NCBI GenBank assembly: GCA_035968315.1
Contig: JAVYIN010000008.1
Coordinates: forward strand, 62,001-126,000
DNA length: 64,000 nt
Direction of reading: 5' to 3'
Origin: Nitrospira sp.
GTDB lineage: Bacteria > Nitrospirota > Nitrospiria > Nitrospirales > Nitrospiraceae
Made by a program: the position numbers and the translations under genes
Shown here: piece by piece, positions 1,790 through 6,874 of the stretch
How positions within the stretch are numbered: position 1 is the first letter of the stretch
Layout of the letters: each line of letters begins with the position of its first letter
Notes under the pieces: generated by a model
What the model was told of the DNA's origin: nothing
Databases searched by the model: none
Seen by the model: the letters and a program-made list of their open reading frames with translations, nothing else

Positions 1790-2224
1790 ATGCCACTGAC
1801 CTCGCAGAACCTCATCCAGCTCAACATCGGCCTCGGCACGCTTGTCGTGGCCGCAGGATTTTGGCTGCTCTGGGGCGCCGTGCCAACGGCGGTCATGGTC
1901 GGATGGACCCTGCTCGTTGCGGGTTTTCTCTTGTGGAAAGGCCGGACGATCACGAAAATCTGGGCCTGGTCCACGCTGCTTGTCGGACTGGAGAGCTTCG
2001 CCTGGCCGCTCAATCTGATGGTGCAGCTCAAGTCGGCCACGACCACGCCATCGGACGAAGAGATGGGAACCGTCCTCTCCGCCGTCGTCTTGGGACTCTT
2101 CGCCGCGGTGTTCTGGATTTCCTTTTCCTATGGCCTCTTCAAGCGCGCGTGGGCCGCATCGACACCGGTTCCTCCCACCACCCCGCCCACGCCCGTGAAA
2201 CCACCCCGCCCCAAAAAGCGCTAG
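1790..2224 (+). CDS. Small membrane protein of unknown function
   Basis: 144 residues with about four hydrophobic segments (roughly 12-34, 36-50, 60-78 and 94-117) followed by a Pro/Lys-rich cytoplasmic-type tail ending PPRPKKR. I do not recognise the family. Codon use is like its neighbours and the frame is convincing because the hydrophobic pattern is regular. It ends two bases before the stop of the converging priA-like gene on the other strand. Confidence 0.65.
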   Translation: MPLTSQNLIQLNIGLGTLVVAAGFWLLWGAVPTAVMVGWTLLVAGFLLWKGRTITKIWAWSTLLVGLESFAWPLNLMVQLKSATTTPSDEEMGTVLSAVVLGLFAAVFWISFSYGLFKRAWAASTPVPPTTPPTPVKPPRPKKR

Positions 2225-2226
2225 AC

Positions 2227-4551
2227 TTACGCCATTTCGAGAGGATCCACGTCCACGCTGAACTTCACATTTCTGCGGGGATAGGCAGGCTCGACCATTT
2301 CCAGAGCCTGTTGCACCACCAGACGAATCGCGGCACGATCGTGTCCCTTGACCATGATGTGTGACCGCACTTGTCCTTTCGGACCCATCCCGACAGCCGG
2401 CACCGGACCGAGAATGCCGATGCCCTCAGATGACGGAGCGAGGAGAGACCCGGCGGGGGAAGATATCCCCTTTCGATGAACCGCCGTGACAGAGGCCGCC
2501 GCAGCACCGTGTAACTGCTTCACCCACTGTTGCGCAGCTTGCCCGACCAGCACACGATCCTTGCCGGACACCGCCAGGTGAATCAAGTGCACAGCCGGCG
2601 GATACCCAAGCAGTTGGCGGGCCCGCAGCTCCTCATCATAAAACCGGGCCGGATCATGGAGGGCGATGGCCTGCATGACATGATGGTTCGGCAGAGCGGT
2701 TTGGAGCACCACGCGCCCTCCGGTTGCAGCCGGACATCCCAAACTCGCCGCGTCAACCAGCAATTGGTAGGTGCGCTCAGCCGCTCGAAAGTCCGGCACG
2801 TGCAACCCGGAATCGGCCTGCACAATCCCGACAAGACCAACGGGAGCGATCGGCTCACGCTGAAACAAGACCTGCGTCCCGATGAGAATATCCCACTCCC
2901 CCGAGTACACCTGCCGCCACGATCCTCTCGCGGCCCCGGCCCCCTGCGAAACGTCTCCTTCCACCCGCACCAGACGGGCGTCTGGAAAGAGCCGGCGAAC
3001 CTCCAGCTCCACCCGCTCCGTTCCCTCGCCAACCGGACTGAGACGTGACGAGCCGCAGGTCGGACAGATGTCGGGGGGAGACAGGCCGACACCGCAATAT
3101 CGGCAGGTGAGCCGCCCTTTGTCTCGGTAATAGGGAAGCGCCACGGCACAGGAGGCACAGCGGGGAACCCACCCGCATTCCCGACAGACCAGCGCCCCAG
3201 CGTAGCCCTTTCGATTCAAGAACAAGATGGCCCGCTCATGCCGCTGCAGCGTCTCGCGCAACGCGGCCACTAAGCGGCCACTGAATGGCGAACCTGAAAA
3301 GTCCTGAGACAGATCGACCAATTCGACGATCGGAGCCTGCTCAGGGCGAAACGGCTGCGTCCGTCGCTCAACGTCCGCCACCGTCATGGACTCCAAGGAA
3401 GGATGGGACGATCCCATGACCAGCGGCACCTGATGCTGTTGCGCCCGCAACCACGCGACCTCGCGCGCATGATACCGCGGCTCCTGCGGTTCCTTGAGCG
3501 CCGCGTCATCTTCACCCTCTATCCATATCAACCCGATCTTGTGCAACGTGAGGAAAATGGCCGAACGGGTCCCGACCACGAGCTGAGGCGACTCCTTCGA
3601 TTCCGTGGGGCTCACAGGATTCTGAACCCGGCCATGATGCACGATCACTGGCAGGTCCATGATGCCCTGCAGAACCTTCGCCAGCCATTCAGCCTTCGCC
3701 ACCTCCCCGACAATCACCAAAACCGACCGGCCGGCGGCCAACACCTGTCTGGCGGCACTGGCCAACAAGGCAATCCGATAATTCGTGTCACCATGAAACA
3801 AGACTTTCATGGCGCGAGAGGCCTGCAGAACGTTTGTAAGACATTGTCCAGCCTCTCGATCTATTTCCGGAGACAGCGGCAAACGGATGGGCGCAGGATG
3901 CTGTGCCACCGATGCTTTGCGGGCCGGAGCCTGCTTCCGCGGAGCGCCACCCGTGCTGCGTATGACCCACTGCTGGGCTTGGAGCCGTTGCAGAGTGCCG
4001 CGCGGGACTTCCTTGGCAGCCATTTGAGTGGTCGCCGCCGATAACCCGCCGGTTCGCCGGGCAATACGGGTGAGAAGCGGCCGCATTTCCTCGGGACAGC
4101 GCCCCCCTTCAAGTGCGCTCCGTCCCTCCTGAGTAGCCATGAAACGGATCGGTGGAGGCTTCGAGAGCGGTTCCGCAGGCAACACCAACCGCAAACATTG
4201 CCCCCATGGGGCAAGATATTCATCCGCCACTCGTTTTGACAATGCGAATAGCTCCGGGGAAATCCCCGAAAGCTGCGCCCCTTCGACAACGGAAACAATC
4301 GGTTTGAGCCGAGAGACACTCATGCCCGTTGGCGGCTGGCCGCTCAGCCTTACAACCGCCCCCTGCAGCATTGTCCGGCCGAACGGCACGCTGACGCACT
4401 GACCGACCGCGATCCGATTTGCCAGAACGGGAGGAACGAGATAGGTAAAGGCCTTTGCGATATGCCGCGGCACGATTACATCGGCAAAGAGTTGCGGAGC
4501 TGCAGACGCGTGGGACGGGGGAGGCATAGGAGGCATATCGGTGTGTTGCAT
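2227..4551 (-). CDS. priA: PriA-like primosomal protein N' with degenerate helicase motifs
   Basis: The 774-residue protein follows the PriA layout: N-terminal DNA-binding domain (ADVIVPRHIAKAFTYLVP), helicase lobe 1, a zinc-binding insert with eight Cys (residues about 456-499, including CRECGWVPRCASC and CRYCG), helicase lobe 2 and the C-terminal PriA domain. The ATPase motifs are not preserved: the Walker A GxTGSGKT position reads HGDTNYRIAL (about 253-262), the DEEH box reads EGED, and the motif VI QVAGRAGR position reads DAASLGCP. Fork binding and primosome loading may survive, but ATP-driven unwinding probably does not. An ATG at 4647 is in frame, but its extra residues do not resemble PriA and the region contains a hairpin, so I place the start at 4551 (4536 is also possible). 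Confidence 0.88.
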   Translation of the reverse strand: MQHTDMPPMPPPSHASAAPQLFADVIVPRHIAKAFTYLVPPVLANRIAVGQCVSVPFGRTMLQGAVVRLSGQPPTGMSVSRLKPIVSVVEGAQLSGISPELFALSKRVADEYLAPWGQCLRLVLPAEPLSKPPPIRFMATQEGRSALEGGRCPEEMRPLLTRIARRTGGLSAATTQMAAKEVPRGTLQRLQAQQWVIRSTGGAPRKQAPARKASVAQHPAPIRLPLSPEIDREAGQCLTNVLQASRAMKVLFHGDTNYRIALLASAARQVLAAGRSVLVIVGEVAKAEWLAKVLQGIMDLPVIVHHGRVQNPVSPTESKESPQLVVGTRSAIFLTLHKIGLIWIEGEDDAALKEPQEPRYHAREVAWLRAQQHQVPLVMGSSHPSLESMTVADVERRTQPFRPEQAPIVELVDLSQDFSGSPFSGRLVAALRETLQRHERAILFLNRKGYAGALVCRECGWVPRCASCAVALPYYRDKGRLTCRYCGVGLSPPDICPTCGSSRLSPVGEGTERVELEVRRLFPDARLVRVEGDVSQGAGAARGSWRQVYSGEWDILIGTQVLFQREPIAPVGLVGIVQADSGLHVPDFRAAERTYQLLVDAASLGCPAATGGRVVLQTALPNHHVMQAIALHDPARFYDEELRARQLLGYPPAVHLIHLAVSGKDRVLVGQAAQQWVKQLHGAAAASVTAVHRKGISSPAGSLLAPSSEGIGILGPVPAVGMGPKGQVRSHIMVKGHDRAAIRLVVQQALEMVEPAYPRRNVKFSVDVDPLEMA

Positions 4552-4634
4552 ACAGCATTGTAGCAGCGCAGGAAAAGACAGGACAATGAACGAAAGCCGC
4601 TTGCGTGAATCCTGAACAGGGAGAGGACAGAGCA

Positions 4635-4663
4635 TCCAGGATGCCATCAGGAGACATCCTGGA
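4635..4663 (-). terminator. Hairpin between OmpA-like gene and priA
   Basis: A perfect 9-bp inverted repeat (TCCAGGATG at 4635-4643, CATCCTGGA at 4655-4663) with an 11-base loop follows the stop of the minus-strand OmpA-domain gene. There is no T run after it, so termination is a guess. It also argues against a start of the priA-like gene at 4647. Confidence 0.35.
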
Positions 4664-4683: not shown

Positions 4684-6255
4684 CTAGAGTGCTGGAGCAG
4701 AAGGCTTGGTCGAATCCTGTGCGGGAGGATCCGGCATGGTCTCCCCTGCCGAAGCAGGAAGACTGGGAGTTCCAGGCGCATCGGCCTGAGGAAGCGCTTC
4801 TTGCCCCGATGGCACTGAAGTGCCCGGAGTGGCGCGAGGCCCTTCTTGACCAGCGCCCGCATCCACCGAACCGGCTCCACGAGCGTTCAGCTGTGACGAA
4901 TCAGTTTCCATCTGGCCCGGGACCTCTGCCTGAGAGGTTTTGGGTTCGGCCGATGCCGGCGCATAGAGCACCACCTCAACTCGGCGGTTGCTGGTGCGAC
5001 CTTCTTCCGTCGCATTGGTCGCAGCCGGCCGGCTATCGCCATAGCCCATGGAAGACAACCGGCTGGAGTCCACCCCGCCTTTTTCCACCAGGTATCGCAC
5101 GACGCCATTCGCACGAGCCTTTGATAATTCCCAGTTACTCGGGTAGCGGGACTTCAGTGAAGGCCCGATTTCCCTATTGTCGGAATGACCTTCCACGCGA
5201 ATCATTCGTCCATCGCCGCTGGACTGCAGATACTCGATCAACTGATCAAGGACTTTGTACCCCTCGGGTCGGATCGCAGCCTCGCCCGACTCATACCGCA
5301 ACAGATTTGCCACGTCTGCAAGGTTCAGGCGGCTCGCGCCCGCGGCATCCTGCACTTTCAAACTCCGTGCAACCGCGTCAGACGGAATGACCGACGCGAC
5401 ACTTTTTTCAGACGTCCCGCGCTTCGGCTGGGGCACAATCGGAGCAGGGGAGAGCTCAGCTGGTTGCGCAACCGGCGCCGAATGTCCCACCAGCTTATAT
5501 CGATCTCCCACCATGATCCTCGTCGTCGACTTCGTAATCTGGGCCGTCGCCGTCTGGTCTTCCGTTGAGATGATCCTGATCTGCCCAACCTTGCGAGAGG
5601 GAATCCCCAATCCCTTGCGATAGATATCCAAGAGATCTCCCTGCCTCAGACCATCCGCTTGCCCCCGATCGAGATACACAACATTCCGCTGAGCCACGAG
5701 AGTCACCGGTGGATCCGCTTGCAGACTGACGATCATGCCGCCGATATCTCCTCGATCACCAATGGAACTGGTCCCGCTCGCCGCCACAGGGGGAGCAAAC
5801 CGGTACACCGGATCGCCAGGAGCAAAGGCTCCGTAACTGCGAACGACCTCCACGGTCGTCAAGGCATCATCCACCTGAGCCACCCGCACCACCGCCAGCC
5901 GCAGGGTGATGAATCCAAGGTATTCGCGCGTGACCGGATGAAACACCTTGCGGACCCGTCGATAGACCGTGAATAAGTCGCCTGCCGCAACGTCATGAGG
6001 GTTGTCCAACTTGAGATAGACAGAATCTCCCGCACCGATAACGGTCCGAGCTCCTGAAGCTTGATTGTCGCCGGTGATCAGATTCACCAGCCCATCGCGG
6101 GGCGTCACTTTCTGAATAGAGCCGGCTGCATAAGCCAGTGCGGCCTCACCGAGCCGAACCGACTCAGTCTCTTGCGTTTGAGCCATCACTCCGTCTGGCA
6201 GAAGGCTGCCCCACGACAAGAGCACAGCTAGAACGATTCGTATCATGTTTTTCAT
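4684..6255 (-). CDS. Secreted OmpA-domain (peptidoglycan-binding) protein
   Basis: 523 residues with a signal peptide (MKNMIRIVLAVLLSWG... ending at VMA-Q), a central region with two beta-rich repeats around AAGDLFTVYRR and RQGDLLDIYRKG, a C-terminal OmpA/MotB domain (VEGHSDN, NWELSKARANGVVRYL, GYGDSRPAATN, NRRVEVVL) and a low-complexity Pro/Ala/Ser tail of about 90 residues. The OmpA domain is expected to bind peptidoglycan and anchor the protein in the envelope. The start at 6255 is supported by AGAAGGAC upstream; an in-frame ATG at 6294 lacks such a site. The GDLFxVYR repeats resemble the C-terminal fold of FlgT-like proteins, but that is weak. Confidence 0.85.
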   Translation of the reverse strand: MKNMIRIVLAVLLSWGSLLPDGVMAQTQETESVRLGEAALAYAAGSIQKVTPRDGLVNLITGDNQASGARTVIGAGDSVYLKLDNPHDVAAGDLFTVYRRVRKVFHPVTREYLGFITLRLAVVRVAQVDDALTTVEVVRSYGAFAPGDPVYRFAPPVAASGTSSIGDRGDIGGMIVSLQADPPVTLVAQRNVVYLDRGQADGLRQGDLLDIYRKGLGIPSRKVGQIRIISTEDQTATAQITKSTTRIMVGDRYKLVGHSAPVAQPAELSPAPIVPQPKRGTSEKSVASVIPSDAVARSLKVQDAAGASRLNLADVANLLRYESGEAAIRPEGYKVLDQLIEYLQSSGDGRMIRVEGHSDNREIGPSLKSRYPSNWELSKARANGVVRYLVEKGGVDSSRLSSMGYGDSRPAATNATEEGRTSNRRVEVVLYAPASAEPKTSQAEVPGQMETDSSQLNARGAGSVDAGAGQEGPRATPGTSVPSGQEALPQADAPGTPSLPASAGETMPDPPAQDSTKPSAPAL

Positions 6256-6874
6256 GGGTTTAGTCCTTCTGTTGAGACAAGTAGCTCTTCGCAAACCATA
6301 GCAAAGGGTCGTGTATTGTCAAGAATAATGGCAGAACCCCACCGTGCATTTGACGGCGGATTTCTCGGGGTGGTACCGTGTCACGAAATATTACAATATC
6401 CTGCTCGCGAATCATGGTTGGTTCACATGACAACACCACGACCAGCCGACTCTCCCCGCTCTTCCCCGCAACCGAGGATTGAAACCCAAATTCATCGGCG
6501 GCGAAAAGCAAAAGCCTTGTCGCCGTTAGAATCAGAATGGGACGACTCCCAGCAGAATCCACCAGCCCATCTCCGCATACCACGCTCCCAAAAACTCCCC
6601 CAAGATCCTCAAACCTGACGAAACACACCACCCTGGATGCCGCAATACGGATTTCATTCGGTCATACGGCAATTTAACGACCGTGAAACGGTCAGTGCTA
6701 ACAGTCTGTAAAATAAATACAATTCATCATTTTTCTCTCCAGTCCCTGTAGGCACGGAAACCTAGGGCTTTCGGGTCGGTATTTGTAGGTCCTTTGTCCG
6801 CTTGCTATCCCAAAGACCACGGCACTAAGATCTCCCCTCTTCTTTCTAGGTCAACAGCTTGTGAGACGAGAACG
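6256..6874. other. Intergenic region upstream of the nuo operon
   Basis: About 620 bases between the divergent OmpA-domain gene and nuoA hold no convincing coding frame. Open frames on both strands (about 100-120 codons at 6260-6631) lack ribosome sites and recognisable domains. The region must carry the promoters of both flanking genes. An AT-rich patch at about 6705-6735 is the likeliest promoter area, but I see no clear -35/-10 pair. Confidence 0.5.

Follow-up and report, generated by a model that had tools for sequence, protein, structure and literature searches.

In Escherichia coli, PriA is an active helicase whose partners are PriB, DnaT and DnaC, and ATPase-dead mutants of the protein (K230A and K230R) remain able to assemble primosomes and to load DnaB. 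Laboratory E. coli can do without unwinding by PriA. Yet good conservation of the PriA helicase motifs among bacteria is reported (PMC4504706), and together these two points pose the question of why the motor is retained. The assay reported for DnaB reloading by the E. coli proteins itself uses the ATPase-inactive K230A PriA, and fork binding is described there as swinging the zinc region so that a pore forms around the lagging-strand ssDNA (PMC10175261).

PriA pseudohelicases are already known in Deinococcus-Thermus: PriA of Deinococcus radiodurans was found experimentally to have no measurable ATPase and negligible unwinding (Lopper 2015, PMC4504706). According to the same report this protein binds to both ssDNA and forks and interacts with DnaB, no clear PriB or DnaT is reported for the organism, and helicase-free restart with direct DnaB contact is proposed (PMC4504706). 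In Caulobacter, DnaB is loaded by DciA, and joint action with PriA has been suggested (PMC9825169); for actinobacterial PriA, a smaller size and strong divergence are reported (Rocha 2005, PMC1193525). Our literature search found no paper naming a motorless PriA in Nitrospirota. What is new here are the Nitrospirota members of this class, notable for their breadth, the depth of the lesion and the intact sister families beside them.

PriA domains and ATP-site motifs of the Nitrospira protein

The window, by which we mean the whole 64,000-nucleotide stretch of Nitrospira DNA that was analysed, carries a priA-like gene with the following features:

2227..4551, minus strand: priA-like CDS of 774 aa and a stop codon; no other PriA was found in the genome
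4177..4482, minus strand: PriA 3'-DNA-binding domain (PF17764), 70.5 bits, above cut-off
3766..3795, minus strand: former Walker A / P-loop, now HGDTNYRIAL without the lysine and shorter by one residue
3508..3519, minus strand: former DEEH box, EGED, placed by alignment to E. coli PriA
3055..3186, minus strand: cysteine-rich zinc region, eight of eight Cys kept, inside helicase domain 2
2731..2754, minus strand: former motif VI, now DAASLGCP with neither of the two Arg
2242..2592, minus strand: PriA C-terminal domain (PF18074), 42.2 bits, above cut-off

The protein matches the equivalog model TIGR00595 at 354.6 bits against a cut-off of 230.35, which identifies it as PriA (primosomal protein N'), and its relatives in the PDB by sequence are deposited PriA chains. 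It has the same domains as E. coli PriA at approximately 26–29% identity. A sequence-only reading of this DNA had held that the eight zinc cysteines and the N-terminal domain remain; alignment confirms all eight cysteines and Pfam the 3'-binding domain, with the Pfam zinc ribbon model falling slightly short of its cut-off (23.3 against 26 bits).

The ATP site was compared with that of E. coli PriA (L076) as the reference. GVTGSGKTE of Walker A is replaced by the one-residue-shorter GDTNYRIA, VIDEEHDS of motif II by WIEGEDDA, TQMLAKGHHFP of motif V by TQVLFQREPIA and VAGRAGRAG of motif VI by AASLGCPAA. The sequence-only reading had stated that all main ATPase motifs are lost. The three strings that it quoted are present and Walker A and motifs II, V and VI are gone, but that description goes too far, as motif IV (ILFLNRKG), part of motif III (GSxxPSL), the second Glu of motif II (E379) and the RYHAR loop are still in place. 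The marks of an active PriA helicase (GxGKT in Walker A, DExH and the arginines of motif VI) are absent, and the protein is instead a PriA with lost ATP-site residues, as in the Deinococcus type of PriA pseudohelicase. Judged from the loci compared here, the motif loss is neither chance nor sequencing error, because another 68 loci of the genus, read independently, show the same pattern.

The precedent originally proposed for this protein was actinobacterial PriA, which fits less well than D. radiodurans PriA. The scores of the window protein are much higher with models of PriA in general (420 bits with PRK05580.1-3, short of the cut-off of 813) than with PRK14873, which we take to be the actinobacterial PriA group and to which the protein does not belong (at most 173 bits against a cut-off of 812). 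D. radiodurans PriA thus appears to be the nearest known case and the better comparator, as both proteins combine the architecture of PriA with defective Walker A and B motifs. The lesions differ in depth, since the reported Walker A change in D. radiodurans is Lys to Arg (PMC4504706), whereas in Nitrospira the P-loop is shortened and the motif VI arginines are lost as well. The two organisms also belong to different phyla, so that the origin is presumably separate, and the Nitrospira protein is known here from its sequence and a model.

That model, predicted with AlphaFold2 (pLDDT 87.2, pTM 0.85), superimposes on fork-bound E. coli PriA (8fak_H) with a Z score of 32.1 and an rmsd of 2.7 Å over 623 residues. 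Its P-loop consists of two residues between the strand 281–285 and the helix 288–304, as compared with five residues between the strand 313–319 and the helix 325–338 in the intact control L087, which was folded with the same 84 sequences. The model suggests that the PriA fold is kept and the P-loop collapsed. We also considered the fork-bound conformation as a pseudohelicase trait and rejected it, since the control models likewise, with 8fak as its best match (Z 36.1, 2.4 Å).

Distribution in Nitrospirota and number of losses

Within the genus, a PriA match was found in 74 of 79 genomes, and in most of these the frame is open and full-length. The locus set comprises 70 loci including the window, and all 69 that are readable lack Walker A; in the remaining one, L016, the frame is broken. 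The same motif loss is seen in two loci that come from named Nitrospira sp. records. Genomes with fragmented matches (G022, G043, G048 and G054) lie outside the locus set, and L016 (broken frame, wrong ORF) and L017, L070 and L072 (length filter) were dropped from the genus alignment. Neither PriA nor the PriA 3'-binding domain was found in G006, G030, G038, G041 and G071 (5/79), one of which is 99% complete at 2.0 Mb. These absences are either assembly gaps or real loss; if real, PriA would be dispensable there.

Alignment of PriA from Nitrospirota, which the sequence-only reading had put forward as a check, showed the loss to be lineage-wide. PriA was matched in 228 of 246 genomes of the class at 1e-40, and the joint alignment comprises 141 sequences (short, broken or duplicate sequences dropped from the class set: L102, L104, L115, L126, L127, L128, L137, L138, L146, L181, L183 and L184). 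None of the 66 genus sequences and none of the 49 others of the order has the lysine of Walker A or the arginine pair of motif VI, and the Thr column of Walker A is deleted in all 115 order sequences, genus included. Both are likewise missing from all seven sequences of families f6, f8 and f10 of the same class and are retained in all 18 from its other families. Decay of motif II is uneven, with DEE still read in 5/49 order sequences outside the genus and in 2/7 of f6, f8 and f10. A loose G[KR][ST] string also occurs in 5 of the 49, away from the P-loop position. One family f8 genome (G095) has two PriA genes, L146 and L147, both degenerate.

Across the phylum, PriA was matched in 203 of 217 genomes. 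We read 48 further sequences, 12 of which retain the P-loop and motif VI and 36 of which lack them. The latter constitute a second degenerate group of 12 Nitrospirota families (f19, f25, f27, f29–f35, f37 and f39; 36/36 sequences), within which L224 has a Lys in the K230 column with no P-loop around it. PriA ORFs of this second group (L205–L234 and L239–L244) are shorter, at 592–705 aa, and keep the eight zinc cysteines; their degeneration is apparently separate. By the motif tables, 19 families are degenerate, 17 are intact and five (f22, f28, f38, f40 and f41) lie outside the motif reading.

Trees were built with the motif columns left out, on 64, 49, 76 and 48 rows chosen from the sequence sets. 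The order together with f8 and f10 forms one clade (98 bootstrap, 98.7 SH-aLRT), and the second degenerate group forms its own (100/100) beside the intact families f26 and f36. At least three changes are needed on the careful tree and four on the quick tree. Because intact PriAs from 17 families interleave with the degenerate groups, at least two losses of the motor in the phylum are favoured by these trees, although not proven. A single loss for the whole phylum is disfavoured, as the trees separate the two degenerate groups, and is not clearly rejected when all degenerate rows are forced into one clade (AU p 0.051 on the careful tree and 0.324 on the quick tree). Family f6 (L110) is unplaced, with an AU p of 0.454 for one clade within the class.

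Candidate restart partners, predicted function and alternatives

The window's own genome is 99.97% complete and has one TIGR00595 match above the cut-off. Four others score far below it; three of these are taken as Mfd, RecG and UvrB from their frame length and the part matched, and the fourth, at 18.6 bits, is left unassigned. A second intact PriA, which the sequence-only reading had named as counter-evidence, was thus not found with TIGR00595 in this genome. PriC, which it had suggested as a substitute, was also looked for in the genome and not found. The genome encodes DnaB, DciA and two UvrD-type proteins, and DciA is present in 34 of the 39 genomes searched, this one included.

We consider it probable that the gene product is a PriA pseudohelicase with a continuing role in replication restart. 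The helicase-independent restart proposed by the sequence-only reading is the predicted function with the best support, consistent with the single PriA, the PriC search, the lineage-wide loss and purifying selection; its actinobacterial comparison is the part that falls away. Abandoned forks and D-loops would be recognised via the 3'-binding domain together with the inert helicase shell, and lagging-strand ssDNA would be threaded through a ring of the zinc region, the second helicase domain and the C-terminal domain. DnaB loading could then be aided at this ring, directly or with the loader DciA, without the use of ATP; on a duplex lagging arm, ssDNA would have to be exposed by another helicase, a nuclease or simple breathing. 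The kept parts appear to be those that a passive platform needs. We infer that the window PriA works with DciA or DnaB, and conjecture that PriA and DciA are linked.

Gene decay is the most obvious alternative: with the catalytic residues gone and PriA not found in five of the 79 genus genomes, the locus might be a recent pseudogene heading for loss. However, the frame is open and full-length in most genus genomes with a match, dN/dS was 0.18–0.42 in nine pairs, the eight zinc cysteines are kept in all sequences counted and are invariant in the 158/158 aligned pseudohelicase rows, and the neighbouring genes are conserved. Purifying selection acts on the gene. This selection and the depth of conservation largely refute decay, which we regard as very improbable.

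The sequences that replace the motifs are in turn conserved in the genus, motif II as GE-E/D-D and Walker A mostly as APWxxR, and the old ATP site may therefore have taken over a structural role. Since such conservation speaks against free drift, a nucleotide could also be bound or used in a rebuilt, non-canonical site. Against this, the genus has lost the Walker A lysine and the two arginines of motif VI along with the DE unit formed by the acidic pair of motif II, and the P-loop is collapsed in the model. Using domain boundaries assumed from E. coli numbering, the information content of Walker A falls from 4.24 bits per column in intact class PriAs to 1.47 in the order outside the genus, below every domain mean and the least conserved stretch tabulated across the order. 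Over the same comparison the zinc region (3.05 to 2.58 bits) and the 3'-binding domain (2.74 to 2.43 bits) change little. A rebuilt site therefore seems improbable. Slightly less so, and still unlikely, is that the protein has left restart for another structural role, such as D-loop protection or recombination. Loss of unwinding, one known PriA activity, would fit such a departure, but the restart-specific parts are kept (the 3'-binding domain, the zinc region, the second helicase domain and the C-terminal domain), and DnaB and DciA are present.

Continued service in restart by a motorless PriA remains our preferred reading, and widespread motor loss suggests that restart can run with PriA as a passive landing platform. 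More tentatively, roughly half of the Nitrospirota families read may have discarded the motor, in at least two events within the phylum, because DciA users need PriA for nothing more than marking the fork and encircling the lagging-strand ssDNA; this would amount to a motor-free, DciA-based restart pathway, a possibility that we rate as somewhat doubtful. With intact and motorless PriAs in one phylum and near-complete genomes, Nitrospirota offer natural replicates, in which the question of what benefit the motor brings, and of the helicase or loader that takes its place, can be tested by comparison and reconstitution.

Translation start, putative promoter and neighbouring genes

The long ORF has an alternative upstream ATG at 4647, and the ATG at 4551 is M33 of this ORF. 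Upstream of 4551 lie two promoter-like elements:

4581..4586, minus strand: -35-like TTGTCC, read from the sequence; relatives have a similar TTGTTC/GTGTCC upstream
4557..4562, minus strand: -10-like TACAAT, 5 nt before the ATG at 4551–4549, giving a putative leaderless transcript

The layout in the window (4549–4586, minus strand) is TTGTCC, 18 bases, TACAAT, 5 bases and ATG. A scan that allowed 4–8 nt between a TANAAT box and the ATG, scored on genus sequences with a locatable domain start, found the box before the matching ATG in 64 of 65 (5 nt away in 63 and 6 nt in one), as compared with 12 of 1280 shuffled sequences. The start at 4551 is supported by this conserved box and by the low confidence of residues 1–37 of the longer ORF in the model. 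A conserved LLxC before the start had been considered as a Shine-Dalgarno signal and was dropped in favour of the -10 box. The spacing suggests that the priA mRNA is leaderless.

On either side, the upstream neighbour (4684–6294, minus strand) is an OmpA-like gene, as labelled from sequence reading, and is conserved in 28 of 29 genus loci, and the downstream neighbour (1790–2224, plus strand) is a small membrane-protein-like ORF conserved in all 29.
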